From positions 1 through 35,141 of IMG/VR virus record IMGVR_UViG_3300045118_000787: a stretch of DNA of 35,141 nt; one strand, given 5' to 3'. The number at the start of each line of letters is the position of its first letter. Position 1 is the stretch's first letter. Position numbers and translations under genes: made by a program. The notes beneath the pieces are model-generated. The model searched no databases and was not told the origin of the DNA. It was given only the letters and a program-made list of their open reading frames with translations. The DNA comes from a virus. Of the stretch, positions 6,787 to 31,150 are shown one piece after another.

Positions 6787-6861
6787 TCATAAGTCTGGTC
6801 GCCTGACCAAAAACCATATTAGCACTATGGGTATTACCACTATCACAATCGCCTGTATCAT
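6787..6861 (-). CDS. Membrane micro-protein, 24 aa
   Basis: A 24-codon frame overlapping the terminase stop (ATGA). It encodes a single transmembrane helix of Ile/Val/Leu followed by Arg-Arg (IWFLVRRPDL end). The overlap arrangement matches real genes in this window. Role unknown. Confidence 0.45.
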   Translation of the reverse strand: MIQAIVIVVIPIVLIWFLVRRPDL

Positions 6862-11307: not shown

Positions 11308-11892
11308 TTAATGAGCGGACTCTACTTCATTACCCCATACATCCCAACCTTCTGTTTTTTGGCGGGCAAAAAGTTCTATGCGAGGTAAGTCACCACATAA
11401 TTCCACAATCTTATTTCTAACTTCATCAGGTTTTCTGCTATGTTCTTTACGAGGTGATAAAACTATTTGTGATATGAATTTACTTTGTCTATTTAATATC
11501 CCTTTTGGTGTTAGTCCAGCAATACATACTTCTGCATTTGACGCAGTCCAATGTCCTATCCCAAAAAATATATCTTTCTTCGTAAAAAACATTTTGTCAC
11601 AAGATTTATTTAATTTTATCCAAGTAAAAGCAAAGGTCTTATAAATAAATCCCCAATTATCCATCACTTGTAATGCCTCTTTTAAGCAGGGGGGGGTAGC
11701 CCATAAAAATAATTTACAATTATCGTCTACTATTTCTTTAATAGGCATATTGCATATGTCTTCAATGCTCATAGTTTGGTAATATCGTTTTGCACAACCT
11801 TGTGCAACCTTCTTATCCTCTGACCATACTTTATAACTCCACGGCGGGTCAGCATATATAATTTGATATTTCTTATTCGGAAAAGGTATCAT
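11308..11892 (-). CDS. MT-A70 family DNA adenine methyltransferase
   Basis: 194 aa with the catalytic motif ADPPW (D15-W18) near the N-terminus, the following YYQTMSIEDI segment, FLWATPP, and the C-terminal RIELFARQKTEGWDVWGNE typical of MT-A70-type N6-adenine methyltransferases (SAM-dependent). In phages these usually mark DNA against host restriction. It is a stand-alone catalytic domain, unlike the second copy at 15819-16778. Its start overlaps a micro-ORF. Confidence 0.88.
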   Translation of the reverse strand: MIPFPNKKYQIIYADPPWSYKVWSEDKKVAQGCAKRYYQTMSIEDICNMPIKEIVDDNCKLFLWATPPCLKEALQVMDNWGFIYKTFAFTWIKLNKSCDKMFFTKKDIFFGIGHWTASNAEVCIAGLTPKGILNRQSKFISQIVLSPRKEHSRKPDEVRNKIVELCGDLPRIELFARQKTEGWDVWGNEVESAH

Positions 11893-11960
11893 TCTCCCTC
11901 CAACGACTGAACTATGGCACGGGCGAGGTCTTTTATAGTCATATCTACCTCCTCACTCAT
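11889..11960 (-). CDS. Micro-peptide between two methyltransferases, 23 aa
   Basis: 23 codons overlapping both neighbours by ATGA. An internal ATG (17-aa form, MTIKDLARAIVQSLEGE) has a better GGAGGTAGAT site. It may be a coupling peptide or a tiny helical protein. Confidence 0.4.
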   Translation of the reverse strand: MSEEVDMTIKDLARAIVQSLEGE

Positions 11961-13228
11961 ATAAGCATCCCTTCGGTATTATTTATTCTTTTTTCGGATA
12001 TTTCTATATATTTCGGATTTAATTCAATGCCGATATAACGCCGCCCTAATTTCTTTGCCACTACTCCTGTCGTGCCTGCTCCAAAGAATGGGTCTAATAT
12101 GGTATCGCCCTTTTTGCTACCAGCCAATATGCACGGCCTAATCAAATCTTCGGGAAAGGTGGCGAAGTGGGCTTCCTTGAAGGGCTTGGTGGTTACTGTC
12201 CAGACAGAGCGTTTGTTGCGATCTGTTTTAGAACCATCAGTATTCCACCCCTTACCAACTCCTTGATAAATCCCATAAGGTTTCCCTGTGGGGTCTTTTA
12301 AATTCTTATACGAACTATTGTATTTTCCAGGATTTCCCTTTCTTTCATCCACAAAATCTTCCTTTATCGCCTCATTATCAAAATAATACTTCTGGCTCTT
12401 GGCTAATAAGAAAATGTATTCGTGTGCCTTTGTGCATCTGTCGGTTACGCTTTCCGGCATACAATTTGGTTTTGACCATATCAAATCTTGCCTCAAGAAC
12501 CAGCCGTCTTGTTGTAAAGCCATCGCTACCATCCAAGGAATCGGTATTAAATCTTTTGGCTTGACATATTGGCTAAATCTGCTATAATTTAAGCATGCAT
12601 TATAAGCGGACGAAACAACATAAGAAGAAGATGAGTCAGATTCTTTCGGGGAAACCAAAACCTTGGTTGAGGGGACGGAAGCGTCCCGAACATTCTGCCT
12701 TGATGAAGAAATGGTGGACTCCTGAACGCAGGGAGGCAAAACGCCAAGAGGCTCTTGGGAAGAATTTGAATGCTCGTTATCACGGTCTTTCTGCAAAGTC
12801 TGCTGCACGCCTTGTTCAACGAATTGGTCATTGTGAGCGATGTCAACATGATGGGACAAAATCTCGCCTCGGTGTTCACCATCAGAATCGCAACAAGCAC
12901 GACCATCGCCTTGAGAACATTGAGATTCTTTGTCATCATTGTCATATGATTGAACATCGGAAAGAGATTGGCTGGGCTGCCTACCACCAGAAGCGTAAGA
13001 CGACCCCAAATTAAGCCACAGAGTTCCGTCATCTTTCAGCACCCGTTTTACTTCTCGGAATACCTCAACGAGTTTCTGGACATACATTTCAGGGGTTTCT
13101 TCGAGACCGATTTGCCCCTCAATCCCATAATCCCGAAGTCCGTAATAGGGCGGGCTCGTAACGCACATCTGCACCGAGCAATCGGGGAGTTTTTTAAGTT
13201 CGGTTAAGCAATCGCCCTGTAGTATCAT
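11957..13228 (-). CDS. Beta-class DNA methyltransferase with an inserted HNH gene
   Basis: 423 aa, against roughly 280-290 aa expected for this family. Catalytic motif TSPPYYGLRDYG (S25-Y28) and the C-terminal SAM motif LDPFFGAGTTG show an N4-cytosine or N6-adenine methyltransferase of the beta (TSPPY first) type. Conserved blocks stop at about residue 82 (LGSSYASGG) and resume at about 225 (YVKPKDLIPIPW). The ~140 residues between are low-complexity, Ser/Asp/Gln/Cys-rich and are the antisense of a plus-strand HNH gene. No stop interrupts the frame, so an enzyme with a long loop could still be made. The start overlaps an upstream ORF stop. Confidence 0.88.
   Translation of the reverse strand: MILQGDCLTELKKLPDCSVQMCVTSPPYYGLRDYGIEGQIGLEETPEMYVQKLVEVFREVKRVLKDDGTLWLNLGSSYASGGRQPSQSLSDVQSYDNDDKESQCSQGDGRACCDSDGEHRGEILSHHVDIAHNDQFVEQGVQQTLQKDRDNEHSNSSQEPLGVLPPCVQESTISSSRQNVRDASVPSTKVLVSPKESDSSSSYVVSSAYNACLNYSRFSQYVKPKDLIPIPWMVAMALQQDGWFLRQDLIWSKPNCMPESVTDRCTKAHEYIFLLAKSQKYYFDNEAIKEDFVDERKGNPGKYNSSYKNLKDPTGKPYGIYQGVGKGWNTDGSKTDRNKRSVWTVTTKPFKEAHFATFPEDLIRPCILAGSKKGDTILDPFFGAGTTGVVAKKLGRRYIGIELNPKYIEISEKRINNTEGMLI
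12561..12588 (+). promoter_or_regulatory. Consensus sigma70-type promoter for the antisense HNH gene
   Basis: TTGACA (12561-12566), 16-nt spacer, TATAAT (12583-12588): perfect hexamers. The expected start (7 nt past the -10) is the A of the HNH ATG at 12595, so the transcript should be leaderless. The promoter lies inside conserved methyltransferase codons. Confidence 0.75.
12595..13014 (+). CDS. HNH homing-type endonuclease, antisense inside methyltransferase
   Basis: 139 aa. The N-terminal region has GKPKPWLRGRKRPEHS, a NUMOD3-like DNA-binding motif of homing enzymes. The C-terminal part is a zinc-stabilised HNH fold: CERC (80-83), VHHQNRNKH (H95/H96), N108, then LCHHCH (113-117) and H121. 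Likely a free-standing nicking or cutting endonuclease that spreads its own gene. It has no ribosome site; a perfect promoter puts the transcript start at the ATG. Opposite strand to all neighbours. Its last codons overlap conserved methyltransferase sequence, so the insertion is about 12600-12990. Confidence 0.88.
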   Translation: MHYKRTKQHKKKMSQILSGKPKPWLRGRKRPEHSALMKKWWTPERREAKRQEALGKNLNARYHGLSAKSAARLVQRIGHCERCQHDGTKSRLGVHHQNRNKHDHRLENIEILCHHCHMIEHRKEIGWAAYHQKRKTTPN

Positions 13229-13380: not shown

Positions 13381-13773
13381 TTACTCCGCGACCATCACTA
13401 TGCTCACCGGTATAATGCCTTGTTTAAGGTCAGCAATTCTATTAAACGCCGCTTTCGCGAGGTCAATTTTCCTACCCAGCCTGTATAACCTTTTGGCCGG
13501 GCCCCGGTCTGTAACCACGCATTTAACGGTTTTCCCATTTTCCAGATTCCGCACCAAGAGTATCGTCCCATAGTCATAATCCCAAGACGCACATGTAAGG
13601 GCATTGTCATTAAGAACCTCCCCATTCGCCATTATTCCCAAAGTCCCCTCTCTCTTACAGCTCTCTACCGAATACCAACTCGCGGTGACTTCCTCCCCAA
13701 ATGCCTGCCCCATACACAAAATCACCCAAACATAGAAGATATACACAAATGTATACTTTATGGTTTTAGGCAT
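13381..13773 (-). CDS. RlpA-like exported peptidoglycan lysin
   Basis: 130 aa: an N-terminal signal peptide or signal anchor (about residues 9-26, ending QAFGEE), then a double-psi beta-barrel as in RlpA. Diagnostic segments are TASWYS, MANGEVLND, ILLVRNLENGK, CVVTDRGP and KIDLAKAAFNRI; the DRGP aspartate and the following ID match catalytic or structural residues of RlpA lytic transglycosylases. No SPOR domain. A phage copy with a signal sequence suggests Sec-dependent export for lysis. GGGGAGGACGAA precedes the ATG. Confidence 0.82.
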   Translation of the reverse strand: MPKTIKYTFVYIFYVWVILCMGQAFGEEVTASWYSVESCKREGTLGIMANGEVLNDNALTCASWDYDYGTILLVRNLENGKTVKCVVTDRGPAKRLYRLGRKIDLAKAAFNRIADLKQGIIPVSIVMVAE

Positions 13774-14057
13774 TTCGTCCTCCCCTGCATACGGTTTTCG
13801 TGGTGGATCATGGCTTGCCAGAACTCGTATCTGTAAGTGAGCGCGAACGCTATCCGGTGTCTGTAATTATGGGGGTATGTATCGAGAAACTCCTTGCGCT
13901 CTATCTTGAATTTCTCCACATCAGGGTCGCGGGTCCGGCCATCCAGGATGTCATGTTGTATTGGGTGAAGCATTATGAGGTTCTCTGGGCAGTTGCAGCC
14001 GTTCTTACCAGCCATGCCCCTATGAAACCAATGGCACTTTTCTATGAGTTTTCTCAT
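13758..14057 (-). CDS. HNH-like protein
   Basis: 99 aa. The segment CHWFHRGMAGKNG, then CPENLIMLHPIQHD, resembles the HNH layout (His, Asn-Leu, His) of small phage nucleases, and a helical tail follows. The first Cys/His set is less regular than in the HNH protein at 12595. Starts in ATGA overlap with the radical SAM gene and overlaps the lysin by 16 nt. It could be a recombination or packaging-type HNH nuclease; moderate confidence. Confidence 0.65.
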   Translation of the reverse strand: MRKLIEKCHWFHRGMAGKNGCNCPENLIMLHPIQHDILDGRTRDPDVEKFKIERKEFLDTYPHNYRHRIAFALTYRYEFWQAMIHHENRMQGRTKCLKP

Positions 14058-14884
14058 ATTTTATATTTCATTATTGTTTTCATTATTGCAGGTCTTGTCC
14101 ATTGTCTTTGCAGTAGGTTCCAGGCTCTTTCTTTGTAAAGATATGTCCCATCCCATCCATCCCTATCAGTTCTATAACGCATTGCAAATGGAAGTGTTCC
14201 AATCTCCCACGCCTTACGTAGTCTTATCTCCGCATTCTCAATCGTATCGCCTTCATACCCCACCAGAACATAACACCGAATTTTATCTCGATTAAAATAT
14301 TTTGATAATTTTTCTACTGCTTTCTGCAAGGGTTTTTCTGCATTTGGATGATCATAAGCAAGCCATATCTGATAAATACGAAGCCCTCGTAACTGTTCCA
14401 CTATTTCATCGGTAATCCTTCCTGCCTCAAGACCCCCTGAAAAATCTATATGTTTTTGTGTTTTGAGCATTGAGAAAACTGCATCTATATGACTTTTAGA
14501 ACAGGCGAGTAAGTTATTATCCTGAACTATATTGCCTTCGGCGATCGGGAGTTCCCTTATCTTGCCTTCACGCTTTGGCACAAAACAAAATCCACAGGAA
14601 TTAGGACAACCCCTCGAAGTTATTACAACGCCTTTTTTAAGAAACATCCCCACCTCAAATGCACCGCCCATATCATTATAGGCAGGCCCACCCCAAAAAA
14701 CTTTTTTAGTATGAGAAGCCCATTCTTTTATTAACTGATTTGCTTTTTCTAAATCCCATGTAAAAGTAACGGATATATATACCCTATCATATTTTGGTGT
14801 GTATAAATCTGGGATATCAAAATATGCGTTCTTATCCGTAGGAGACATATTTGTTTTAGTTGGGAATACCCTTGCTATTTTCAT
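14054..14884 (-). CDS. Radical SAM enzyme
   Basis: 276 aa. CPNSCGFC (Cys93, Cys97, Cys100) is the canonical CxxxCxxC binding the 4Fe-4S cluster that cleaves SAM. It follows an N-terminal region with a GGPAYND motif reminiscent of the Rossmann-like domain of cobalamin-type or MiaB-like radical SAM proteins. A TIM-barrel-like remainder includes HIDFSGGLEAG and YVLVGYEGDT. The substrate is unknown; in a phage, base or nucleotide modification is a reasonable guess. Its ATG directly follows the stop of the replication gene. Confidence 0.82.
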   Translation of the reverse strand: MKIARVFPTKTNMSPTDKNAYFDIPDLYTPKYDRVYISVTFTWDLEKANQLIKEWASHTKKVFWGGPAYNDMGGAFEVGMFLKKGVVITSRGCPNSCGFCFVPKREGKIRELPIAEGNIVQDNNLLACSKSHIDAVFSMLKTQKHIDFSGGLEAGRITDEIVEQLRGLRIYQIWLAYDHPNAEKPLQKAVEKLSKYFNRDKIRCYVLVGYEGDTIENAEIRLRKAWEIGTLPFAMRYRTDRDGWDGTYLYKERAWNLLQRQWTRPAIMKTIMKYKI

Positions 14885-15571: not shown

Positions 15572-15844
15572 TCATCTTTCGGGTATTTTATATTTCTTTA
15601 CCAAAGATAATATTTTTACTTCCCCACCACCGAAACACTCATTTATAAATTCTTGAGTCATCTTATGGCCCTTTCCGTTTGGGTATTTAATATCTTCGCA
15701 TTGGCCTATCATATTTAATATTCTACCCAGATCATACAAGGACGGAAGCCATGTCGTATCATTTGCGAATACTACCTTTACCCAAAATCCATCGTCTTTT
15801 TCTATTATTTCAATAGTTTTAACTTTCTGATATTTCGTTTCCAA
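15572..15844 (-). CDS. Hypothetical protein, 90 aa
   Basis: 90 aa, starting at TTG (15844) behind AGGATGG; no upstream ATG is available in frame. The N-terminal half looks beta-stranded (VKTIEIIEKDDGFWVKVVF) and the rest helical. Overlaps the MT-A70 gene by 26 nt. Function unknown. Confidence 0.6.
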   Translation of the reverse strand: METKYQKVKTIEIIEKDDGFWVKVVFANDTTWLPSLYDLGRILNMIGQCEDIKYPNGKGHKMTQEFINECFGGGEVKILSLVKKYKIPER

Positions 15845-16778
15845 AGTTTTCCCATCCTTTTCTTTTGTTCCGGGCGAATAGTTCTATATATGGCCCGGCA
15901 TACATTTCCTCAATCATTTTATATGCTACTTCCGGTTTTTTGGAATGCGCGGTTACACTCCCCTCAAACCATGAAACGAGTTTTTCTTTTGGGTGTGGGT
16001 TACCTTCTCGCGTAGCTATTAAAAGCAGTTCGTGGCGACTAATGGTAAACCATCCTATGCTTGGGCCTTTACTCTTTATCCATACGAGATTGGACTTATA
16101 TTTAAAACCCCATGCCTTTATTACTTCAAAAGCATCTTCGAGCATAGCATTGGTGGCCCACATAAACAAAACCGTGTCTTTACAACATAAACTTTTGACA
16201 TTCATATCACATATGGTAGATGTGGGCATTGTAGAATAATGCGAGTCCGCGCTTTCAGCAAGGCCGGAATTATCGAATTGCCAGGGTGGATCAGCATATA
16301 TAACCCTGAATGTTCCTTTTGGTAATTCTGGTTTCGGTTGGCGATCTCTCACTATCCTGTCTTTTTCTTTTACCCTCCTTAATACCTCTGTCCGGGTAGG
16401 TAGATCATCCGCATCTTCCGCATCTGCTTTCACCTGCTCGATAATGTCCTTATTCTCGGCGAGTGTCTGGAATATATGGCTTTGCTTATGCGTAATGCCT
16501 TCAGGTAAAGAGCTCCTTCCTGCACCGGAAGTAGCTTGGTGCTTTGCGGTTAAAGGTTTTAACAGTTCCCCCATCCGGGCCTCGGCATCTAAAAGCGCCC
16601 CGGCGAGCATATTAGCCTCTTCCCGCTTTTGCTCACGGACTTCTTTGGCAAGACCGAGCTTATCAATCGCTCGTATATACGCCCTTACAGATGTTAATTT
16701 TTCGCGACCTATAAGGACGAATTTTGCAAGTTCATTGATGTTGGATGGTAGATTTATTGGCTTTTTTGTTATATTCAT
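15819..16778 (-). CDS. MT-A70 adenine methyltransferase with N-terminal extension
   Basis: 319 aa from the ATG at 16778 (ATGA overlap, GAGAAGGTGAA site) rather than the GTG/ATG-like codon 15 nt upstream. The N-terminal ~145 residues form a helical region with THKQSHIFQTLAEN, like the DNA-reading regions found before phage MT-A70 domains. The catalytic part has YADPPW (D163-W166), HYSTMPTSTI, FMWATNAM and PYIELFARNKRKGW. It presumably methylates adenine in phage DNA to evade restriction. Coupled to the annealing protein gene. Confidence 0.87.
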   Translation of the reverse strand: MNITKKPINLPSNINELAKFVLIGREKLTSVRAYIRAIDKLGLAKEVREQKREEANMLAGALLDAEARMGELLKPLTAKHQATSGAGRSSLPEGITHKQSHIFQTLAENKDIIEQVKADAEDADDLPTRTEVLRRVKEKDRIVRDRQPKPELPKGTFRVIYADPPWQFDNSGLAESADSHYSTMPTSTICDMNVKSLCCKDTVLFMWATNAMLEDAFEVIKAWGFKYKSNLVWIKSKGPSIGWFTISRHELLLIATREGNPHPKEKLVSWFEGSVTAHSKKPEVAYKMIEEMYAGPYIELFARNKRKGWENFGNEISES

Positions 16779-17896
16779 TTCACCTTCTCCCACTTGGTCT
16801 TGAAGTAGGCTTTGACATATTCGGAATACTCTTTGAGGCTCTTTAGGAGATTGTCGGTGTTCTTATTCTTCCACACCGTAAGCTCGGCGCGGGTCTTAAA
16901 GACGTCTATCTCCCTAACCGCCCTTTGGGTGAATTCCTTTGAAAAGGCCTCTTTTTCGGCCAGTTCCGCTTCAGGTGTCTTTTTAAGTGCCCGTTTTTCG
17001 CCTACATTTGCTTTCAAATCGACGATCTCCCCGTCATCGGTGATTTCCACCTCCGGCTCAATGCCCTCTTTTAGGGGGCTTTCTGGCGCGTTTTCGCCCC
17101 TTACAATCATCTCTATCTTATGGTCGAATTCTTCTATGATGAATTGCCTGTCCTCATCCATCAACCGGCCGATGTCTTCCTTGTATTTACGCTGGAGATT
17201 GGCTACGGCGAGGGTGTTCTGGCAGGCGGCGATCTCATCCATAATCTTGACCTTTATGTCCTCCACCCATTTATCATAGGTGGCCGGGTCGTTAAGCGCC
17301 TCGGTGGTCTTTATGGCGTCCCCCATAAACTCAAGTTCGGTCTTCGCATCCTTCTTTATCTCGGCCTCCATCTCCTCCTCGGAGTAAAGACCCTTTATAT
17401 TAAAGGCTTTTCGTAGGGCTTGAGATTCAGCCACCTTCTTGATCATCGTTTCGGGCTTGCTCGACCAAAGCGCCTGGGGTTTTCCCTCTTTATTGTAGGC
17501 GCAGTATTCCTTGAATTTCACCTTCACTATGACTGGGTTCGGGAAGCTCTTGTTCCAGACCTTACATATCGCGCCATCGAGAACTCCATTACCGTCATAG
17601 ATTACGTCCGACTCTATCCCCCCGAATTGTCCAGTCCTGTGGGCTATGGCGAGGAATCCGTCCCTTGTGGTCATTATCGATGGGACTTCATCGAAGCCGT
17701 TTTTGTAGGGGTTCCAGACCCGGCGCTTGATAAAGCATATCTCTTTTAGGAACGGGTCAAGTTCGTATTTATTCGCCAGGTATATGAACATGGCGAACTC
17801 GTCATCCCCGGCGCCTTTGGCTACGGTTCGCTTCACTAAATCTATCTGCTCCTTCGTCATCTCCTTGCCGTTGGTCGTCGTCAACTCTTTAGACAT
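16775..17896 (-). CDS. bet: Bet/RecT-type single-strand annealing recombinase
   Basis: 373 aa. Motifs of the Bet family are visible: GAGDDEFAMFIYLANKYELDP near the N-terminus, SIMTTRDGFLAIAHRTGQFGG, a conserved EY (KFKEYCAY), WSSKPETMIKKVAES and QALRKAFNIKGLYSEEE. It anneals complementary single strands in phage recombination and repair. The C-terminal ~150 residues are charged and variable, as usual. AAGGAGG precedes the ATG. No partner exonuclease is obvious nearby; the coiled-coil gene upstream is often beside such recombinases. Confidence 0.88.
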   Translation of the reverse strand: MSKELTTTNGKEMTKEQIDLVKRTVAKGAGDDEFAMFIYLANKYELDPFLKEICFIKRRVWNPYKNGFDEVPSIMTTRDGFLAIAHRTGQFGGIESDVIYDGNGVLDGAICKVWNKSFPNPVIVKVKFKEYCAYNKEGKPQALWSSKPETMIKKVAESQALRKAFNIKGLYSEEEMEAEIKKDAKTELEFMGDAIKTTEALNDPATYDKWVEDIKVKIMDEIAACQNTLAVANLQRKYKEDIGRLMDEDRQFIIEEFDHKIEMIVRGENAPESPLKEGIEPEVEITDDGEIVDLKANVGEKRALKKTPEAELAEKEAFSKEFTQRAVREIDVFKTRAELTVWKNKNTDNLLKSLKEYSEYVKAYFKTKWEKVK

Positions 17897-19944: not shown

Positions 19945-20214
19945 TTAAAATAGTTTATTTGGGGTTTCTCCCAATACCGCTTTTATGTCAGTAATGATTA
20001 CATCCACTTCCTTGATTTCCTGCTCTGTCCGGCGGTGGAGTTTGGATACCACGGCCGTCATATCGTGTAAGCGCCTGATGAGATTGGCAAGAGTGTCTTT
20101 ATAGAGGGCGAGGTTCTGTTCTTTCTGCTTTAGGGTGACAGAAAGTTCTTTTAATCGGTGGCGATCCTGATCGGACATAAGGGAGACAAATGGGGTGTTT
20201 ATGGCTTCAGGCAT
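19945..20214 (-). CDS. Coiled-coil protein, 89 aa
   Basis: 89 aa with a nearly continuous coiled coil (about residues 15-80). Starts in TAATG overlap with the giant virion protein gene. Last gene of the late virion block; perhaps a chaperone or partner of that protein. Confidence 0.65.
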   Translation of the reverse strand: MPEAINTPFVSLMSDQDRHRLKELSVTLKQKEQNLALYKDTLANLIRRLHDMTAVVSKLHRRTEQEIKEVDVIITDIKAVLGETPNKLF

Positions 20215-23200
20215 TAGAATATCAACCTATTTCCACTCTTCTTTAATACGAAAGGTTTAGAGGTTTTCTTTTGGGATGAGTATTTATTCGGGAATATCTG
20301 TCCCCTCATAAGCCTCTCTATCTGTGTTCCGGCGGGGATAAGTGTCAGGACGGCCCTCCTCGCGGCCTTTGCCCTGGTTTCGGGTTTCTTCGCGCCTATC
20401 CCGAATCCCTGGCCTATGTTTTTTACGAACCTTACTATGCCCGGTTCTTCATACCTTCCAGCTGTAAAAAATGGGACTTTGGGAATAATGGCCCCGGCTC
20501 CATATGGTTTCCTCAAACCCATCTTTTCATACAGAGCATTTACGAGTAATGATGTTACGAGAAGCATCCAGAACGCCCCCCACCTTACCTTGCCACCCTC
20601 GACCTTCGTTATGGGCTTTAATAGGTTTTTAGGGAGATTCCCAAGACCCAAATCATATATAAGATAATTCATGGAATTAAAAGACCAATTCTGGAACTGG
20701 CTTAATATCGCCCCAGCCTTCGACCTCATATATGCGTTCATTTCGTATTTCTTATATCCTACCTGGGTCCGGCGCGCGATCGCGTCCGCATACTTCATTG
20801 CTTTAATCTGGTCATATTCCAGTTCTTCTATGCCCTTAAAATACGCCCCCACATATGTCGAACCAACGTTATTCATTTCTATCAGGTTGGTTACAAACCC
20901 TATCGCATCTTCTATCTTGTTAAATGTAGAGGGGTCTAAGTCGGGGTCGATGGTCCTGCCCTTAAGCATGACCGAGTGCTTAAACGCGAAATCCCTCCAC
21001 TCTTTCGTGCCTAAGAATTTCCCCATACCGACACTTAGATACTTGGGACGAAGTTCTCCCATTGAGGTGGTGAAGTTTGAAAGGTTCGTCACCCAGAAGT
21101 TGATATTCCCAAGTAATGCGCTTTTGGCAAAATGGGACCTGAACCAACTCACTGGAGCTGAATCTAAAATTTGCCCATATAGGTTCTGGTCGGCAATCGA
21201 CTTTTTGCCTTTGAGTTCACTTATAAGTCTATCTATCGCCTTATAAGCATTGGGTTGGCGCGCAAGGGCATATTCTATGAATTTTCTCGAATGGCGCAGT
21301 CCTGGTGTGTAATAAATGCCTTTTAATATGGTATTGCGATATATTTCATAGTTTCCTATGGCGTCATACTTGGTCCTGGGGCCGCGGCGCTTTAGGGCGA
21401 ATTGGTTAAAGGGCTGGTATCCTTTTGTGTAATCCCCTTTGCGGATCGCCTCCAATTGCGCGTCACTTACTTTGGATGTATCCTCTAACCTGCCTTCAAA
21501 AAATTCGTTTAGTAAGTTATGCTCCCTGATGTGGGTCATATAGTTTTTGCGATAGGGCATCTGCTTTGCGCCTATGGCTCGCATCACTTCGTTATATTCG
21601 GCTATCAGGGACTCGTATTTCGCGCGGAGATATTTGACGACCCTCTCTTCTTTAGGGGTGAGTGTCTTCCCCTCCTCGAATTTCCTCATCAACTCCGCGC
21701 TCTCTTTGGAGTTCTTCTCGATGCCCTCCTTCGCTTTTATGAGTTCAGTATTTTCTTTTACAAGCCTATCGAACATCGCGGAGTCGGCAGACATCCACAC
21801 TTGTAGGGTGTTATCGCCTAATATATTATCTTCCCACAATCTCCTCCTTGTGACTTTCTCTATGACGCGTGGAATGTCGAGGGACTGGGTTTCGAGGTTG
21901 TTTATGTCGATCCACCGCTGGGAGTCCTTATTGATTATCTCTATGACTTCACGGTCCTTGTCTATATCGCCATAAAGCTTGAATATCCTGGCCGGGGTTT
22001 CGGGTGTTCCTGACAGGGCATTGATATATGCCATCAGTTGGTCATAAGAGGCGTCTTTGTAGAAACGTATCAGACCCAATAGCGGTCCGGCAGATCTCCC
22101 CTTCAAGTTTTTATGGACGAGACCCTTATTCATCGCGGCCACATATAGGGCTTTTCGTTGTTCCGGGTCCCAAGCCTTCCCGAATGATGGGGTGCGTTCC
22201 TGGCCTGTCTTTATGAGTTCTTCTCTGATTTTGAGCCATTCGGCGAAGCGCTTGCTTTCTCCAGTAATTTCTTCTGTGAGGTATTCTTCTCCAGGTTTAA
22301 GTCCGACAAGATTAGCGCCGCCACGAGTAGTGTATTCTTTGGGTAACTTGTAGTTGATGAAGCTGATGATTTCATCTCTTCCTCCTCTGTTGGCCACAGC
22401 ACCTATCGACTCCTCTACATTGTAGGGAAGTTTATTGGCGCGTAGCCATCTATTTAGGTTTATATCCTCATTATTCGTGTATATGATTTTTACGCCACTC
22501 TTGGCAAGTGGTAGTAGGTGTGCCTCTAAATTTTGCTTATGACCTTCCCACGTGGAGTCCTGTGTCCCTACCGCATAAGTCCCCTCTTTAGCGGTGGGGT
22601 TCAAATATTGCGGATCTACCAACACGACTGTTTTGTCTGGGTCCAGCCCCCCGGCATTTACGGCTTTCGTGATCTCATCCATCGCCTGCCATGCATCCAT
22701 CTGGGTAATGGGGATTTTCCCATCGCGAGTCAACTCATTCCCCATATTTTTATCGACATCTGTTATCCTGGACATCGTATCTCTTATGGTGGACTTGTCC
22801 TGGGACGTCCTTATGATGCCCTGCGTCCAGGTATATTTACCGCCTTCTTTCGATATCCCGAATACCGATGTATTCTCAAGGAAGTAGTATATGGCGCTCG
22901 ATTCCGGGGACTTAAATCCATCAGATACCGCCTGCATTAGTAGCTTATTTCCGAATTGCTGTATTACATCCCTGGCGAACTGCGCCCTTTCTTTCAACAT
23001 CCCCCTTTGTAACCATTTGTTTAAGGCAGACCTTAACGCCTCGGAACTATATTTGTTCGGGTCTATCTCAAAGGCATATGCTATCTCCCGTATAAGTTGG
23101 TCCCTTAAAGTTTTTACGGTAGACTTCATCGTCTCGACTTTGGCGGGGTCCTGCATATTCTTGTAATAGTTATACCTCTCATCCGAAAGTTCGTTTAAGT

Positions 23201-25694
23201 GATAGTTCTCCGAAGGTATGTTATTAAATAACCCTATCCTATATCCCTTCGCCCCACCGAATAAATCATAGACGGTGGTTATGTCTTTACGGAGTTCGTT
23301 CTTTAATCCCTCGGAAAGCCTCGACAATACCTCGGATTTATTCCCAAGTAGAGTAAACGGCATCTCGGAAGTTATCTCGCGCTGTAATGATTGGTCGGTG
23401 TCCTGCCTTGTGTTGAGTAGCGATCCTCTCCCGACTAATGTTTCCTGGCGCTTTACCTTCTGGGGTTTTTCTTTCTTGGCTTTAGGTATGAGTTGTTTTT
23501 GGACGCGCAATCGAGCGCGCTTGTCGGCTTGGGCAACAGCCTTCCCTGATTTTATATTTATCTCATCCGCGAAATATTCGCTTATGAGAGAACGTAATTC
23601 GTTGTCGTTTTCTATCGGGAACCCTTCCTGTTGGAGCGTTATCACTAATTCGTCTGGGGTAAATCCTCTCTCGTCCGGGCTTGCGAATAGCCAATTTAAG
23701 TGTTTTAGGTCAGCGTATTCTCCTTGAGATTTGAGACTATATTTTAGCTTCCCCTTTGTGTATGCTTTGAGTGTCTGCTTCCTCTCAAAGTAGGCTTCCG
23801 ACATTTCCTTCTCTGCAATCTTCGCCAGTTCCTTATCTTCTTCTATTATCTGCTGTTTTATTTTCTCTATTTTCTCGGCGATGAATTGCTCTTCTTTTTT
23901 CGTGAAATCTAAATTTATATCATCTCGCTCGATAGATAATTGTTGCAGAGATTTTCCTTCTAAGATGCGCCCGATTATAAAGTCGCGCTCTGATTTATTG
24001 AGCATATCCATCACTTCGTCAGTCAGGTCGGCTTTAGATATAGGAGAGGGTTCTTCCTTCTTTATGGGTTTTCCTCCCCCCATAGGTTGACTAACAAGAC
24101 TTGCTTTTACTTCTGGAGTGAGTGGCTTATTAACTTCCATTACTGGAATTTGTTTTATCCCCATTCTTTTAGCAAGAATTGCCCGATGGTAACCCTCTTG
24201 GCTTCTTAATTTTCCGGTTTCTTTATCATATTCGAGGGAAGGTATATTCCATCGTTCGCCTTTTTTCAATTTATCTTGTAACGCTTTTATTTTATCCTCT
24301 GAAATTCTTTGCTTTTCTACAACATAAGTCTTAAAATCATCATAATTTTTCCAGTCTGACCTTTGATTTGGACGCATTGCTTCCCATTGCCCACGAGTTG
24401 CTCTTTCAAGATATTCATCGGGAGATATAAAAACAACTTTTCCAGTAATCCCTTTCACCTTTTCATAATATTCTCGTCGTGTCATACCATTAGCAACGAT
24501 AGTATTATCAAAATGGGAATCAAAATCTGAAATTCCTGTTTCTCCTTTAAATATATTTTGTCCCCTCACATACTCCTCAAGAGTGGGGATTTTCTCCGCT
24601 TCACTCAACGCCTCATTTACAAGTTGCTTCTTTACAGAGAGATCAAACCCTTCCTGTTCCTTGCCTTTTACGCCTTTTAAGGGTTCTATAAGTTTCGTCA
24701 AGCGATCCCGCTCGGCTTTAAGTTCGTTTATTTTGGCTTCGTCGCCTGTGATAGACTTTCCGTATGCCAAGGCTTCGTTAGTGGTCTTAAAGGATATCGC
24801 GGGCGCTTTCGCCTCTGGCGCAGGCTTTTGCTTTAGTATGTATTCGGCTATCCTCTGGGGAGTAAGGCTCGCTGCTTTCGCGCCGATGGCAAGAGCTGCC
24901 TTATCTATGGTTTCTTTCGGGAATGTCCCTGCAAACCCTTCCATTATGTTTTTGGCTATGTTTATTTCTTCAGGGTTAAATTGTGGGGCAGGAATTCCTC
25001 CAAAGAAATAATTTCCTCTCGGTAAACTTACACTCTCTTTCGCTATATCAGATATTACCTTGCCACCTACCCGTTCTTGTATTTGGCCGAGGATGCCCTC
25101 TTTTTTCAAGGCCGCCTTAAACCCTTCAAAAGATGGGTCTACATCGCCTATGAACCTTCCCGATTCTACCATCCTGGATACGCGTGGCTCTATTTTTATT
25201 CTATAATATGTCTTTAATATCCTGTCGGTCTCCGACATTCCGGCTAATTTCTTTACGCCACCTATCGCACCTGGTATCATAAGCACCGGATCGGCCAATA
25301 AATCAAGACCTGCCGCCACGAATTCCCCGGTAAGAGATGGAGTCTTGTCCAGGTCTATACCTCTTGTCTTTAATAGTTCTCTTCCGGTGATTTTAGGTTG
25401 TTTCTTCTCGAATGTTTCTATGCCGAATTTAATGGCGGGTCTTATACCTTCTTCGGGCGCTTTGGCAAAACGGAATAATGATTGCTGGAGTATGTTGAGC
25501 GCTCGTCCCACCGCTTCATACGATTCTACTTCTTCTGGGGATGGGGGGAGCAATTTTCGGACAATGGGTTGGGCAAGCGGAGTCAGCAAAGTAGACGCCG
25601 CCGTTTCAATTATAGACCTTGCCGGGATAGGTAGTTTCGGCTCTATATCAAAGTCTAACTTATTTTTAGGCTCTTTTAAATCGAAGTTTAGCAT
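20214..25694 (-). CDS. Giant polyvalent internal virion protein
   Basis: 1826 aa, probably injected with the DNA. Residues ~470-525 look ParB-like (LRSQEGYHRAILAKRMGIKQIPV). Residues ~778-1117 match the layout of a D12-class N6-adenine methyltransferase: PFTLLGNKSEVL (SAM entry), TVYDLFGGAKG in place of the usual PFxGxG, YHLNELSDERYNYY, then LVDPQYL (1025-1031) where DPPY is expected, TNNED, and a C-terminal ISFINY. The Gln in DPQY makes activity uncertain. Residues ~1350-1750 match the usual C-terminus of large phage polyvalent proteins, with hydrophobic segments (FWMLLVTSLLVNALY) that may contact membrane. A helical HTH-like stretch lies at ~570-600. Confidence 0.82.
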   Translation of the reverse strand: MLNFDLKEPKNKLDFDIEPKLPIPARSIIETAASTLLTPLAQPIVRKLLPPSPEEVESYEAVGRALNILQQSLFRFAKAPEEGIRPAIKFGIETFEKKQPKITGRELLKTRGIDLDKTPSLTGEFVAAGLDLLADPVLMIPGAIGGVKKLAGMSETDRILKTYYRIKIEPRVSRMVESGRFIGDVDPSFEGFKAALKKEGILGQIQERVGGKVISDIAKESVSLPRGNYFFGGIPAPQFNPEEINIAKNIMEGFAGTFPKETIDKAALAIGAKAASLTPQRIAEYILKQKPAPEAKAPAISFKTTNEALAYGKSITGDEAKINELKAERDRLTKLIEPLKGVKGKEQEGFDLSVKKQLVNEALSEAEKIPTLEEYVRGQNIFKGETGISDFDSHFDNTIVANGMTRREYYEKVKGITGKVVFISPDEYLERATRGQWEAMRPNQRSDWKNYDDFKTYVVEKQRISEDKIKALQDKLKKGERWNIPSLEYDKETGKLRSQEGYHRAILAKRMGIKQIPVMEVNKPLTPEVKASLVSQPMGGGKPIKKEEPSPISKADLTDEVMDMLNKSERDFIIGRILEGKSLQQLSIERDDINLDFTKKEEQFIAEKIEKIKQQIIEEDKELAKIAEKEMSEAYFERKQTLKAYTKGKLKYSLKSQGEYADLKHLNWLFASPDERGFTPDELVITLQQEGFPIENDNELRSLISEYFADEINIKSGKAVAQADKRARLRVQKQLIPKAKKEKPQKVKRQETLVGRGSLLNTRQDTDQSLQREITSEMPFTLLGNKSEVLSRLSEGLKNELRKDITTVYDLFGGAKGYRIGLFNNIPSENYHLNELSDERYNYYKNMQDPAKVETMKSTVKTLRDQLIREIAYAFEIDPNKYSSEALRSALNKWLQRGMLKERAQFARDVIQQFGNKLLMQAVSDGFKSPESSAIYYFLENTSVFGISKEGGKYTWTQGIIRTSQDKSTIRDTMSRITDVDKNMGNELTRDGKIPITQMDAWQAMDEITKAVNAGGLDPDKTVVLVDPQYLNPTAKEGTYAVGTQDSTWEGHKQNLEAHLLPLAKSGVKIIYTNNEDINLNRWLRANKLPYNVEESIGAVANRGGRDEIISFINYKLPKEYTTRGGANLVGLKPGEEYLTEEITGESKRFAEWLKIREELIKTGQERTPSFGKAWDPEQRKALYVAAMNKGLVHKNLKGRSAGPLLGLIRFYKDASYDQLMAYINALSGTPETPARIFKLYGDIDKDREVIEIINKDSQRWIDINNLETQSLDIPRVIEKVTRRRLWEDNILGDNTLQVWMSADSAMFDRLVKENTELIKAKEGIEKNSKESAELMRKFEEGKTLTPKEERVVKYLRAKYESLIAEYNEVMRAIGAKQMPYRKNYMTHIREHNLLNEFFEGRLEDTSKVSDAQLEAIRKGDYTKGYQPFNQFALKRRGPRTKYDAIGNYEIYRNTILKGIYYTPGLRHSRKFIEYALARQPNAYKAIDRLISELKGKKSIADQNLYGQILDSAPVSWFRSHFAKSALLGNINFWVTNLSNFTTSMGELRPKYLSVGMGKFLGTKEWRDFAFKHSVMLKGRTIDPDLDPSTFNKIEDAIGFVTNLIEMNNVGSTYVGAYFKGIEELEYDQIKAMKYADAIARRTQVGYKKYEMNAYMRSKAGAILSQFQNWSFNSMNYLIYDLGLGNLPKNLLKPITKVEGGKVRWGAFWMLLVTSLLVNALYEKMGLRKPYGAGAIIPKVPFFTAGRYEEPGIVRFVKNIGQGFGIGAKKPETRAKAARRAVLTLIPAGTQIERLMRGQIFPNKYSSQKKTSKPFVLKKSGNRLIF

Positions 25695-26335
25695 TATCCC
25701 TTTCCGAAGTATTCCAATATGGCTTTGACATCTATACCTTTTTTCTCGGCCTCGTCAATGCGACTTATGAATTCTTTTATATCGGCCTCTGTCTTTATCT
25801 GTGAAATAACACTTAATGTCTTGGGGTTTAATTCTGCCTGGCGTGGGCTAAAGAATGATCTCACTCTACTTACTGGACTACCTGTCCCCCTAACAAAAGA
25901 TGGACTTTGGAATATTGGAGTAGCCGACATTCTTGCCTTTTCTATCTTGTCTATGTGTAGTGGATAGGTTGCTTTTATATCCTCCCAGTCCATCTCTCCA
26001 CGTAGGGCTTTTGCTAAATCATCATTAAGTCTTTCAGTAATGGATTTTTGTTTTTGTGGGACAAGTATCTTCTTCCCTGCTTTGTCATACCCCACCTTGT
26101 ATCCTTCGGGTATTCCAGTATCCGTCATAGTAGTTGCGGCAGGATTGGCCCGCGATCTGTAATATTCTGCCTGCGCTGCCTTTAGTTCGGACTCCTCCGG
26201 TGACAGCCTCCTGCGTAACATATCCTTGTAAAGTTCCTTCCTCAATTCTATCGCAGATTTATTAGCCTCTGTAAACCCCTGTATGCCTCCCCCGATCACG
26301 GCTTCGAGGATATCGCTAAATTCGTCCCTGGCCAT
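25694..26335 (-). CDS. Putative internal virion/ejection protein
   Basis: 213 aa: a Gly/Ile N-terminus (LEAVIGGGIQGF), a charged helical region, and a C-terminal helical part ending just before the giant gene. Position between the tail-block proteins and the polyvalent protein suggests an ejection partner. AAGGAGAACAT precedes the ATG. No family recognised. Confidence 0.65.
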   Translation of the reverse strand: MARDEFSDILEAVIGGGIQGFTEANKSAIELRKELYKDMLRRRLSPEESELKAAQAEYYRSRANPAATTMTDTGIPEGYKVGYDKAGKKILVPQKQKSITERLNDDLAKALRGEMDWEDIKATYPLHIDKIEKARMSATPIFQSPSFVRGTGSPVSRVRSFFSPRQAELNPKTLSVISQIKTEADIKEFISRIDEAEKKGIDVKAILEYFGKG

Positions 26336-26379: not shown

Positions 26380-26694
26380 ATGAGAATATTACTCGTTTTC
26401 GCTATGATGTTTGTGTGTTCCTATTTTTTCGCTGCCGAAATGGTAGACTGGCGCGCGAAAGACTATGAAACGAATTTTACTAAAGAACTCTGCGATGCCC
26501 CCCAAGAAGAACTGATTAGACTCTACAATGGAACACAATCTGCCATACAAAGTGTAACTACTCAAAAGCCTCCATATGGTTCAGTTGATTATCCAATATG
26601 GCGCGATTTCCTCGATAGGCTTTATAAAAACCTTGCGCTCATAAAAACAGAAATGCAAACCCGCGAATTAAACGGGCATATATCAAGGCGATAA
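26380..26694 (+). CDS. Secreted small protein, plus-strand moron
   Basis: 104 aa from the ATG at 26380 (an upstream ATG at 26353 would add 9 residues and skip the promoter logic). It has a signal peptide MRILLVFAMMFVCSYFFAAEM, then a soluble helical region with conserved-looking WRAKDYE and YPIWRDFLDRLYKN. Only convincing plus-strand gene besides the HNH gene. It sits opposite the tail operon between two virion genes and overlaps the end of the neighbour by 12 nt. Typical of a moron acting in the host envelope, e.g. superinfection exclusion; the role is not shown. Confidence 0.7.
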   Translation: MRILLVFAMMFVCSYFFAAEMVDWRAKDYETNFTKELCDAPQEELIRLYNGTQSAIQSVTTQKPPYGSVDYPIWRDFLDRLYKNLALIKTEMQTRELNGHISRR

Positions 26695-27366
26695 AAGCGC
26701 TGACCCTTTCCGCGAAGCTAATATATCAGACCATGTTTCGGGCGTAAAAAAACTTCTTCCCCCCGTAGCATATGATGGAGTTGCTTTTGGATTTATGATG
26801 TCTTTAAGTCCCTGTAATCCTAACTGTTGTCCCACAAGATTTGCCCCCCATCCTAAAATCTTCGATAATGTAGACGGTTCTTCAGGAGTATACATCCCTG
26901 AAGTAGAACCAAGCACATTCGCGGCCTGCCCTAAGATACTGCCTTGAGTCTGTAATCCCTGATAGTCTGCCGCGAGTTCCGCTTCGGCCTGGGATCGGGC
27001 GAGCCTGTCCACGAGTTCGGTCCGCAGTCTATCGAATATACTTGTGCGCCCCATACCTCCTTCAGCATAAACCCTCTCACCAATACTCTCTATGCCCTTC
27101 GTCCTCTCCTCCCCAAAGCGCTCACCTATCAACCTCTTCTGTTCTGCTACAAGGCCAGGGACTCTTTCAGCAAGCGCCATCTGTCGGTTAGATATGGCTT
27201 GTAGTTGGGAGCGTAGCCCAGCGAGGGGGTCCTCTTTCCCTTTCTTCTTATCAAATAATGAACCTAAACTCGAACCTATCATCCCCCCAATTCCAGCGGT
27301 TATCGGTCCCCCAAAAGAACCGATACCCGTTCCAATTATTCCCCCTATACTTGAACCCCACTCCAT
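26683..27366 (-). CDS. Putative DNA ejection protein
   Basis: 227 aa. Gly/Ile-rich hydrophobic N-terminus (IGGIIGTGIGSFGG, IGGMIGSSLGSLF), then a long helical region (~60-150) and a Gly/Ser-rich tail. This composition is typical of podovirus internal or ejection proteins that cross the envelope during DNA injection. It lies upstream of the other ejection-type genes. Confidence 0.7.
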   Translation of the reverse strand: MEWGSSIGGIIGTGIGSFGGPITAGIGGMIGSSLGSLFDKKKGKEDPLAGLRSQLQAISNRQMALAERVPGLVAEQKRLIGERFGEERTKGIESIGERVYAEGGMGRTSIFDRLRTELVDRLARSQAEAELAADYQGLQTQGSILGQAANVLGSTSGMYTPEEPSTLSKILGWGANLVGQQLGLQGLKDIINPKATPSYATGGRSFFTPETWSDILASRKGSALLSP

Positions 27367-27646: not shown

Positions 27647-30600
27647 CTAATGTATGGGTTCGGGACGACTGCGTATCTCGACAGCACGAATAGTGTGCTT
27701 ACTGTCTTTAGCGTCGGAATTCCGATAGCTTAATTTCATCGTATTACCATAAGTCGAGGCCGGGAAATACTTCCTTATCTTTACTGTATTATTCGTGACA
27801 GTATTAGATGACGGTATGGTGATCGTCCCGGTCTTCGCGCCGTTATCTATGTCATAGTCAAAGTAGAACGTCCCGAGACTTGAGTTTTCATCCGTATATA
27901 TATCTGCGGTAAAGTCGAGGAACTGCTTATTGACTTGAGGCGAGCCGAAGTCAAGCCATTTGGTCTTATATGAACTTGCCAAAGTAGATTCCGTCGATCC
28001 GGATGGTACTAAATAACTAAGCGATATCTGGTAAAGCTCTGGTGTGGTATGTATATAATTACTGCTAAATATACCGCGATATTGTATGAAGTCGTTGGGG
28101 CTAGAATCAAGATTTTCACCGCTTGTATCATAATAATTGAATGCCCCGATATCGGCAATATATAGATACCCAGCAACATCCCCAAGATTTCTTAGTTGTA
28201 TATATTTTACACTATTAAGAGATGCGTCCGCTATTCCACCTATATACCAATTAAATTTCTGCCAAACATTCGGGGTTACAGTATTGAATGTTATTACATT
28301 AAGAAGATTTGCGTCTTCGCCTATATATAATTGTACACTATTTCCAGTTGCGGGACTTTTAAACCATCCAGAAATCCAATTATATTCTGATAGGTTTGTA
28401 ATTGGTACGTAAGCGTCAGCATATACCCCTACCGAAGTCGATCCGAATACTTGGAATTGACCACAATTCGTAGATACGACATCTTCATCCTCGTAATATA
28501 ATACATTTCTACTTTGTGCGGATGACGGCTTTTGAACTTTAAGCTTTGACGCGTCAGATGACGTGAATATAGCCGTAGCATCAGTCACCGTATTAAAAGT
28601 TACCGAACTATTGCTTGACCAGTATTGCCACCCATTGTAATATACACTATCGTTAGTAACTCCAGTTCTCGTCTGGAATGATATTTTGGTATATGATGGT
28701 ATCGTACCATACCAACTTATAGTATCAAGGTTCGCTGCCCCGCTTGCGTTGATTTGAATATTTTGTGAATGAAATGTTCCGTCCAATATATATTCACCTA
28801 TTCCACTTATATCCGTTGCTTCAATTCCAGAAAAATATGTAGGATCTGAAGTTCCAGTTATATTAGTATGATTTACTACTATACGACCCTTACCAGCAGC
28901 ACCGCCGGCATTTGTATATCCAGCCCCACCGGTAGCCGTTATTAGAGATGTTCCAAGAGCGCTATTTCTTGCTTTAATATATATCGACCCACCCGAGCCA
29001 GAACCCCCATTTCCTGCCTGTTGTTGTCCATTACTTTTAATGGTTCCAGCTACTGTTACAGTTGGACTGGCTATGTATAATACGCCCCCACCAATACCAC
29101 CAGCCTGTCCAGAACCACCGCCCCCACCAGAACCCGGGCAAAGTCTTATTAAATTTTCATAAGCGTATGCTACTCCCCCATCACCACCTGCCGCTCTATT
29201 GGGTTCTCCTGTTCCAGCAGTACCATTAGTCCCATAACCCGCGCCCCCTCCAGCGGCCTGTATATTTGCCGGTCCACTACCATTATGTCCTCCCCCGCCA
29301 CCCCCGTTGTTTGCACTAGTAGAAGCCGACCCGGTACCAGTATATGATTCTCCTTGATTTGCCTGTGTTCCTGGAGCTACGGCACATTGGGCTCCCCCCC
29401 TATAACCAGTATTAGAAACATCTATCGAACCACCACTATTTACACTTAGAGTACCGTAGCATTTAAAAGCTACTATTCCATAGTTAGTTCCGTCCCAAGC
29501 AGAACAGGTAAGGGTTCCACCATTATTCAGCGTTACATTGTTATAATTTGGAATACGCTGTATCATTATCTTATCTGTAGTTCCATCGTACGTATTTTTT
29601 AATGGCTCAACAAATGATATAGATCTATTAGAACTAACCTCTCGCAATCTTTTTATCTCCCATTTTCCATAATTACCAGATGATGGGGCTTGGAAATTTA
29701 TTATCATTACCTCGTCACCAGAAGAAAGACCCGTGGTATCTGGCATAGATATGGTATACGTTCCAGCAGTGACGGATGAAGTCGATACCGCATAGTTTAC
29801 ACCATCTGCAGCAGTACGTCCCAAGTAACCATTAGTATCGGTATTAATATTCTTTGACGTTGCTATAGTCCAATTTCCATCCTTGCCATTTCCATAATAA
29901 GTATCTAAGATAATGCTCGGATATGTAGTGGTAACAGTATTGAATGTAACACCTTGATCAAATTCTGTTTTCGTGGAATGGACTATACTTTCCGAACCGC
30001 CAACCGACTGTAAAACCCATACTATTCCGTTTCTTGTGGAAGAACCGCCATATATTTCTCCCTTGTCTGTTCCGCCATTTGCCACTTCAAAATAATTTAT
30101 ATTCAGGTTGTCATACGGATACCATTCTTTTAGTGTAGTGTCATATATTAAAATCTTGTCATTATAAGATGATGTCCTGTAGGTATAAGATAACCAGTAT
30201 TTCCCACTTGTATCGTATGTTCCGCATGAGTTCTGTATATTGGTGGTTGAGATATCTTTTATTAAAGGCTCTACCTTATCGCTTAATTTATTGGAGGAGT
30301 TCCCATCGAACGCGAATACCCCTGTCCTTGCTAAGAATATTATCCCTATATCGGAGATTTTTATTGTCCGAGGGGCGATCGCGCCTACTTGGGAATTAGT
30401 CTTTTGCATTGAGAAATCATTGGGGGTAGAACCTAAAATCCTGTAAATGTTCATCTCGGTGAATACGAATAGATATCCTCCCCACGATGCAAGTCCGGTT
30501 ATGGTCTGGGACACATCGGGGAGATCTATATATCCACCCGTAGTAGTCCAATCCTCCGCGTTATTAAGAGTTGAGAAGTATAGTCTATATGGAGAGGTGT

Positions 30601-31150
30601 CGGATCTCGCGGCCCATGCCCTGTTTTTATGGATAGCACCATAATAGCAGTTCGTTGTAGGAACTCCGGCAGGCGTAGTGGTAAGACCCGTCCCAGCCCA
30701 GTTCTGCATAGCTACTGTGGGGTTAAATAGATATAGTTCATTATTAAATGTTATGGCCGACCAGTAAGTTTCAGGGGTAGGATTAAGTCCTGATTGTGTG
30801 ATGTCGGTCCATGTCCCTCCAGATCCGGAGCATATCTTACTTCCGGCGCAGGCCACGAAATACTTACCTGAAGTCTTATAGTATTTAAACAATCCCGTTA
30901 TAAGATTTGAGCCTAAAGCTCCGGAGGATGAGTTATACTGCCCGAAGGTTTCCCTGTCCTTAAATGCTCCGGACTCGTCAAGGGTTATATTGGAGGCATC
31001 GAGTGCCTCGTCATCGGTCAAGAGTTTAGGATTGACACGGGGATTTATGCCTAAAAATTTTACCTTGAAGTAACTTGTTAATTCCCCAGTCGCGAATATA
31101 GACGTGCCTATGATAAGCAATATCGTCAATATGGAGAGTATCTTTTTCAT
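27647..31150 (-). CDS. Tail nozzle-like protein with Gly-rich adhesin domain and signal peptide
   Basis: 1167 aa. Residues 1-20 are a Sec-type signal peptide (MKKILSILTILLIIGTSIFA). Residues ~30-400 contain repeated motifs like a beta-propeller of podovirus nozzle/stabiliser proteins (AITFNNELYLFN, ITGLASWGGYLFVF, GIIFLARTGVFAFDG, LIYDTTLKEWYPYD). Residues ~545-760 are Gly/Ser/Thr-rich with Gly runs, like polyglycine receptor-binding domains. Beta-rich sandwich-like repeats follow to the end. Position after the adaptor supports a tail-end protein that closes the tube and binds the host. TAATG overlap with the upstream gene. Confidence 0.78.
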   Translation of the reverse strand: MKKILSILTILLIIGTSIFATGELTSYFKVKFLGINPRVNPKLLTDDEALDASNITLDESGAFKDRETFGQYNSSSGALGSNLITGLFKYYKTSGKYFVACAGSKICSGSGGTWTDITQSGLNPTPETYWSAITFNNELYLFNPTVAMQNWAGTGLTTTPAGVPTTNCYYGAIHKNRAWAARSDTSPYRLYFSTLNNAEDWTTTGGYIDLPDVSQTITGLASWGGYLFVFTEMNIYRILGSTPNDFSMQKTNSQVGAIAPRTIKISDIGIIFLARTGVFAFDGNSSNKLSDKVEPLIKDISTTNIQNSCGTYDTSGKYWLSYTYRTSSYNDKILIYDTTLKEWYPYDNLNINYFEVANGGTDKGEIYGGSSTRNGIVWVLQSVGGSESIVHSTKTEFDQGVTFNTVTTTYPSIILDTYYGNGKDGNWTIATSKNINTDTNGYLGRTAADGVNYAVSTSSVTAGTYTISMPDTTGLSSGDEVMIINFQAPSSGNYGKWEIKRLREVSSNRSISFVEPLKNTYDGTTDKIMIQRIPNYNNVTLNNGGTLTCSAWDGTNYGIVAFKCYGTLSVNSGGSIDVSNTGYRGGAQCAVAPGTQANQGESYTGTGSASTSANNGGGGGGHNGSGPANIQAAGGGAGYGTNGTAGTGEPNRAAGGDGGVAYAYENLIRLCPGSGGGGGSGQAGGIGGGVLYIASPTVTVAGTIKSNGQQQAGNGGSGSGGSIYIKARNSALGTSLITATGGAGYTNAGGAAGKGRIVVNHTNITGTSDPTYFSGIEATDISGIGEYILDGTFHSQNIQINASGAANLDTISWYGTIPSYTKISFQTRTGVTNDSVYYNGWQYWSSNSSVTFNTVTDATAIFTSSDASKLKVQKPSSAQSRNVLYYEDEDVVSTNCGQFQVFGSTSVGVYADAYVPITNLSEYNWISGWFKSPATGNSVQLYIGEDANLLNVITFNTVTPNVWQKFNWYIGGIADASLNSVKYIQLRNLGDVAGYLYIADIGAFNYYDTSGENLDSSPNDFIQYRGIFSSNYIHTTPELYQISLSYLVPSGSTESTLASSYKTKWLDFGSPQVNKQFLDFTADIYTDENSSLGTFYFDYDIDNGAKTGTITIPSSNTVTNNTVKIRKYFPASTYGNTMKLSYRNSDAKDSKHTIRAVEIRSRPEPIH

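Follow-up and report, generated by a model that had tools for sequence, protein, structure and literature searches.

What is a region with the motif order of a DNA adenine methyltransferase doing inside a giant phage protein, and can it work with the altered catalytic motif that it carries? The window analysed here is the whole 35,141-nucleotide stretch of IMG/VR virus record IMGVR_UViG_3300045118_000787, a phage contig that also has portal, terminase, major head protein, and virion structural protein genes. Its largest gene, at 20214-25694 on the minus strand (stop codon included), has an ATG start and encodes the 1826-aa protein that an earlier note, made from the letters alone, had placed there as a virion protein with ParB-like and D12 methyltransferase-like regions. 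The open reading frame is called as that note had it.

Layout of the giant protein and its relatives

The protein, all of whose parts lie on the minus strand, begins with a lineage-specific N-terminal part that is not conserved in relatives (residues 1-540; 24075-25694). A putative sigma-70 region 4-like helix-turn-helix (HTH) at residues ~558-620 (23835-24023) precedes a D12/Dam-class methyltransferase-like domain at residues 764-1136 (22287-23405), and a C-terminal region, residues 1137-1826 (20217-22286), is predicted to be helical in a low-confidence model. Searches of Pfam, NCBIfam, PHROGs, and PDB sequences with the 1826-aa protein gave no usable match. Matches to GAUT_1 (E 0.009) and Amidase_6 (E 0.004) were below the cut-off and were set aside as chance.

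Relatives were found by scanning IMG/VR with the domain alone and then with growing alignments, which recovered six records (L003-L008), a truncated seventh (L026), and a genome contig (L009). The IMG/VR scan with the whole protein as query found no relatives, and neither did tblastn against 50,697 phage records. The full-length giant proteins of the relatives are 2180-2790 aa long and have residues ~552-1160 or more in common with the 1826-aa protein, which is 52% identical to that of L003 over 1256 residues.

The N-terminal content varies from one giant to another. In the window it includes a ParB-like box (..GYHRAILAKRMGIKQIPV..) at residues 463-527 (24114-24308). Compared with ParB_N by hhalign, this box scores 27.0, with 100 shuffles reaching 18.1 at most; the probability is 32%, from a single sequence, and only segments containing residues 463-527 score high. 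The ParB-like region of the earlier note is thus less well supported than the D12-like one; Pfam models do not call it and the IMG/VR scan found no relatives of it. L005 instead has RadC (E 2e-19) and L008 an M15 peptidase (E 7e-8). RadC- and peptidoglycan-peptidase-type modules are listed for polyvalent proteins (PMC5512222), and the giants, with several unrelated domains in one large polypeptide that are swapped between relatives, have the polyvalent architecture. The N-terminal halves of L003, L004, L006, L007, L008, and L026 contain a domain that recurs among them, with NEIQSDW-like and WHEIILKRLLRYAAENGYDF..TGEQVAEYYDL-like motifs; it is not called by Pfam and is probably another payload module.

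The HTH is placed by weak, co-located matches to HTH_38, Sigma70_r4, and sigma factors ahead of the D12-like domain in L003, L004, and L008; the corresponding stretch of the 1826-aa protein itself is not called. At the other end, residues 1591-1680 match PLxRFG/tail-700 weakly (E 0.0027, 16 bits against a curated cut-off of 100). The giant resembles the PLxRFG megaproteins in being a large phage protein with this C-terminal match, and PLxRFG was not called in the four relatives scanned. An AlphaFold2 model of the C-terminal region (pLDDT 41, pTM 0.26) was too poor for a fold search.

Fold and motifs of the D12-like domain

The comparison of this region with Dam and D12 enzymes that the earlier note had suggested yields D12-type matches by both profile and structure. 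Utilizing hhalign, a 7-member alignment of the domain was compared with 12 D12 methyltransferases, of which 11 are from phage records and the twelfth is E. coli Dam. The local score is 48.0 over 236 columns, with a global probability of 93.5%; the column shuffles (100) peak at 25.3 and the reversed rotations (100) at 22.1. The AlphaFold2 model of residues 764-1136 (mean pLDDT 73, pTM 0.77) is a predicted structure with a Rossmann-type methyltransferase fold of D12 topology. A Foldseek search of the PDB with this model returned 13 chains at E<=0.001 (3e-6 to 1e-4), all of D12 type, and the next match has an E of 0.06. These matches include 4rtm, 2g1p, 2ore, 2dpm, 1yfj, and 7m6b, and the proteins are E. 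coli Dam, DpnM, T4 Dam, and Mcbe1, the last of which we take to be D12-type from its place among the others. Among the viral models of BFVD, every match at E<=0.001 that has a name is a site-specific adenine methyltransferase. TM-scores of the PDB matches are moderate (0.39-0.46 by query length), as expected because the domain has a shared core and a larger insertion. Pfam PF02086 misses the domain, even with the threshold relaxed to E 10. Taken together, the profile comparison and the model make residues ~764-1136 a predicted, divergent D12/Dam-class methyltransferase fold.

The alpha-class order of motif X, motif I (SAM), recognition region, and motif IV appears in both the hhalign and the MAFFT alignments, bearing out the whole D12 motif order that the earlier note had read at residues ~778-1117. 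On the minus strand, GNK at residues 784-786 (23337-23345) is motif X-like, the counterpart of GNK in T4-type Dam and GGK in E. coli Dam. DLFGGAKGY at residues 810-818 (23241-23267) is the SAM-binding loop, motif I, where T4-type Dam has DLFCGGLSV, and LNELSDER at residues 833-840 (23175-23198) is motif II with its acidic residue (ADIN in Dam). The GNK and the motif II acid are kept in the alignment. A hairpin region, FLEN..FG, follows before LVDPQY at residues 1025-1030 (22605-22622), which occupies the catalytic motif IV position of YCDPPY in Dam. YTNN at residues 1072-1075 (22470-22481) corresponds to ISN in Dam, and GRDEIISFIN at residues 1105-1114 (22353-22382) to the C-terminal D12 strand, GTDEVYIFN in T4-type Dam. 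The target-recognition region differs from that of Dam, and L008 is without part of it.

Across the domain family the SAM loop reads DL(F/W)GGAKGY. The second glycine of FxGxG is absent, as it is in the T4-type phage Dam L016, and this glycine is therefore not obligatory. The idea of a broken SAM loop was dropped after this comparison: DLFGGAKG is located at residues 810-817, but it is less aberrant than the earlier note had it, since L016 has its own such loop at the same columns. Further, GNK, DPxYL, and a G(T/R)DE C-terminal strand are common to the domain family and L016, and the motif spelling is closest to T4-type Dam.

The catalytic position is a different matter. LVDPQY, which the earlier note had also picked out, is indeed in place of DPPY, and DPQY is fixed in 7/7 full-length sequences. 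The exchange of the second proline for glutamine is the only change, with Asp, the first Pro, and Tyr kept. These three residues of the N6-adenine methyltransferase motif are the parts contacting the target adenine, and DPPY is a defining catalytic motif of D12 enzymes. The role of the tyrosine is also given in PMC3036652. None of the papers in the collection searched has both 'DPQY' and 'methyltransferase', and a degenerate DNA pattern for VDPQYLNP matched only already known family members in IMG/VR. Judged by alignment, DPQY is the only really unusual motif. Because the catalytic DPPY is replaced, we class the domain as a divergent D12-fold domain and not as a D12 methyltransferase; most likely it works like one.

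Gene context, spread, and selection

In the relatives, genes run in the order tail nozzle (phrog_376), internal virion proteins phrog_308 and phrog_418, a ~480-550-aa protein, the giant, and tail fibre; the phrog_308 protein was seen in L026, and a similar ORF is present in L009. T7 genes 12-17 have the same order, and we take the relatives' giant to occupy the slot of gp16, which T7 ejects. The resemblance to gp16 lies in this slot, after gp14- and gp15-like genes. Unlike gp16 and other podovirus ejection proteins, to which the searches used detected no similarity, the giants have methyltransferase-like and swappable payload domains.

The window is arranged likewise on the minus strand. Upstream of the giant gene are a 213-aa ORF (25694-26335), by position a putative ejection-protein partner in the gp15-like slot, a 227-aa ORF with weak PHROG matches (26683-27366), putatively a gp14-like internal virion protein, and a 1167-aa virion structural protein (27647-31150; phrog_3287, phrog_511). 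An Rz-like spanin (19945-20214; phrog_214, E 4e-4) lies directly downstream. These neighbours fit by position but match internal virion proteins weakly, except for the 1167-aa virion structural protein. The context is late or virion-related, with internal virion protein neighbours in the relatives and the virion structural protein upstream in the window. From gene order we infer that the giant is ejected with the DNA, a view that has stronger backing in the relatives than in the window.

Elsewhere in the window, also on the minus strand, are three standalone methyltransferases, of the MT-A70, N6_N4, and MT-A70 families (11308-11892, 11957-13228, and 15819-16793), a DPBB lytic transglycolase-like protein (13381-13773), a radical SAM-like protein (14054-14884), and RecT (16775-17896). 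Inside the methyltransferase ORF 11957-13228, and antisense to it, is a plus-strand ORF (12595-13014) that has HNH-like residues and a NUMOD3 motif; the methyltransferase frame continues without a stop across a low-complexity stretch at this place. The major head protein gene looks split (802-2706, minus strand) into an N-part at 2320-2706 and a C-part at 802-1542 (phrog_1328). An ORF at 1707-2306 with a LAGLIDADG-like motif separates the parts, and the exon-2 frame is open upstream (SDGTTAAAAGLDNDPVRILGG). The interruption resembles a homing-endonuclease intron, although Rfam called none. The 390-aa terminase ORF (6858-8030, minus strand) matches profile positions 301-586 of 807 only; the N-terminal ATPase portion is either absent or lies in another place.

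The window terminase is about 27-29% identical to those in the relatives' records, and the portal found no match in them, in a search run without a positive control. Because the giant protein is similar while the portal is unmatched and the terminase only distant, exchange between phage lineages is suggested.

The 2277-aa proteins encoded by L004 and L009 are identical. L009 lies on a contig of 109 kb from a Candidatus Omnitrophota bin, and bacterial genes, which we take to be RNase H, YebC, RuvC, and RuvA by reading of their sequences, adjoin the phage end. This suggests that the L009 phage region is a prophage, in a bin whose assignment can be wrong. No further copy beyond this bin was found in 384 Omnitrophota genomes. 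The phage region (6335-17194) ends near tRNA-Met (16896-16967) and tRNA-Val, a possible integration site. Within prophage reach on the same contig (G001:C3:39221-39526, L060), a 555-aa frame has a strong ParB_N match.

The D12-like domain is the best-conserved part of the protein across all relatives, at 51-65% identity, while the N-terminal half, including residues 1-540 against the six relatives, does not align. Against these six, 30/60 residues are invariant at 781-840 and 31/60 at 1021-1080, which are the segments for SAM binding and catalysis. When the close group L005-L007 is taken by itself, conservation in the C-terminal region equals or exceeds that in the domain. Domain dN/dS between relatives is 0.065-0.095, for pairs with unsaturated dS only. 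Motif-segment invariance and purifying selection, as estimated from these alignments, disfavour a decaying decoy; they do not separate methylation from another conserved use of the pocket.

Candidate roles during DNA entry

We propose, at what we judge an even chance, that the giant is a polyvalent ejection protein of a short-tailed phage with a Dam-like domain that methylates entering phage DNA; ejection and activity are conjectured, and the fold is predicted. Gene order suggests that the protein would be packaged in the virion and enter the host with the DNA. The core common to the relatives would be the putative HTH, a D12/Dam-class fold with T4 Dam-like motifs, and the helical C-terminal region, with the N-terminal half as an exchangeable payload (ParB-like in the window, RadC or M15 peptidase in relatives). 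The D12-like domain would most likely bind SAM and, if DPQY supports catalysis, most likely methylate adenines of the phage DNA on its arrival in the cytoplasm or immediately afterwards. Such methylation would protect the entering DNA from host restriction before the phage's standalone methyltransferases are made. The window phage has two MT-A70 and one N6_N4 enzyme of this kind, and neither family was found in the records of several relatives. The D12-like domain is the constant across window and relatives, and the standalone methyltransferases are not. Our best guess for the simplest account, which agrees with the protection of incoming DNA raised in the earlier note, is a genome protected on entry, before expression.

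A bolder form of this proposal, possible though doubtful, has the methyltransferase tethered to the DNA-ejection machine. Placed by the HTH and an ejectosome anchor, its DPQY active site would modify the genome while it threads in, giving protection before any gene expression. It would amount to an alpha-class version of DarB in which the catalytic motif is a new variant, and at least one such phage is apparently a prophage in the Candidatus Omnitrophota bin.

The fixed glutamine can also be read as loss of catalysis. An inactive D12 fold kept as a DNA-binding or shielding module would grip the entering DNA, perhaps with the HTH, and block host nucleases physically with no methylation. DPQY is fixed in all full-length copies, the SAM loop has a lysine, and physical shielding is discussed for Dar (PMC12707154). 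Invariance is concentrated on the SAM and catalytic motifs, however, Asp, the first Pro, and Tyr are kept, and T4-type Dam likewise lacks the second glycine of GxG, so we hold shielding to be unlikely, if worth serious attention. A glutamine fixed where proline is normally fixed, along with the enlarged helical insertion in the recognition region, suggests altered function rather than decay. An active SAM-dependent enzyme could then have a different substrate, be it RNA, single-stranded DNA, or a component of the host, or a different chemistry, with DPQY marking the change. Yet all close structural matches are DNA-type D12 enzymes, and such a shift seems rather improbable.

Timing could differ as well. 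An active methyltransferase might act late, on newly made phage DNA inside the host cell or while that DNA is packaged, and its presence in virions would be incidental. The late-gene position would suit this, as would the relatives in which no standalone N6_N4 or MT-A70 methyltransferase was seen, but fusion to an ejection-slot protein with payload domains would not be expected, and the window phage already has three standalone enzymes; we regard late action as quite improbable. The altered motif letters might suit a decoy, which the earlier note had raised as an alternative, or a fossil, in either case with no enzymatic or binding function. This reading is scarcely credible: no other part of the protein is as conserved as the domain when all relatives are compared, its invariant residues fall on the SAM and catalytic segments, and its dN/dS below 0.1 indicates purifying selection between relatives.

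Methylation of entering DNA by the D12-like domain, the reading we prefer, can be set beside known systems. The domain resembles E. coli Dam, DpnM, and T4 Dam (PF02086) in predicted fold, motif order, GNK, motif II acid, DPxY, and C-terminal strand. It differs from them in having DPQY for DPPY, the DLFGGAKG loop, a score below the Pfam cut-off, and a larger helical insertion (373 aa against ~260-305 aa for the domain), and in being embedded in a 1.8-2.8-kaa ejection-slot protein. Like P1 DarB and the polyvalent methylase-helicase dyad, the giant would be virion- or injection-linked, joins a DNA methyltransferase-like domain to unrelated partners, and has a presumed antirestriction role. DarB-type and polyvalent methyltransferases are described as mostly of gamma class (NPPY/F), occur with LPD36, and are fused to an SF2 helicase (PMC5512222), whereas the giant's domain is alpha/D12-like in order with DPQY, and no helicase family was called in the 1826-aa protein. 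P1 Dar, the nearest precedent, acts only in cis, through a mechanism that is not yet clear; it may shield the DNA physically instead of methylating it (PMC12707154).

Most of what is known about injected anti-restriction proteins comes from P1 Dar. If the proposal is right, several phages have a compact Dam-like domain fixed in their ejection slot, one domain would suffice for a direct test of methylation on entry, and DPQY would join DPPY, long regarded as the form of this motif, as a naturally fixed active site. Since the domain escapes PF02086, other phage megaproteins may contain similar domains that have gone unnoticed.
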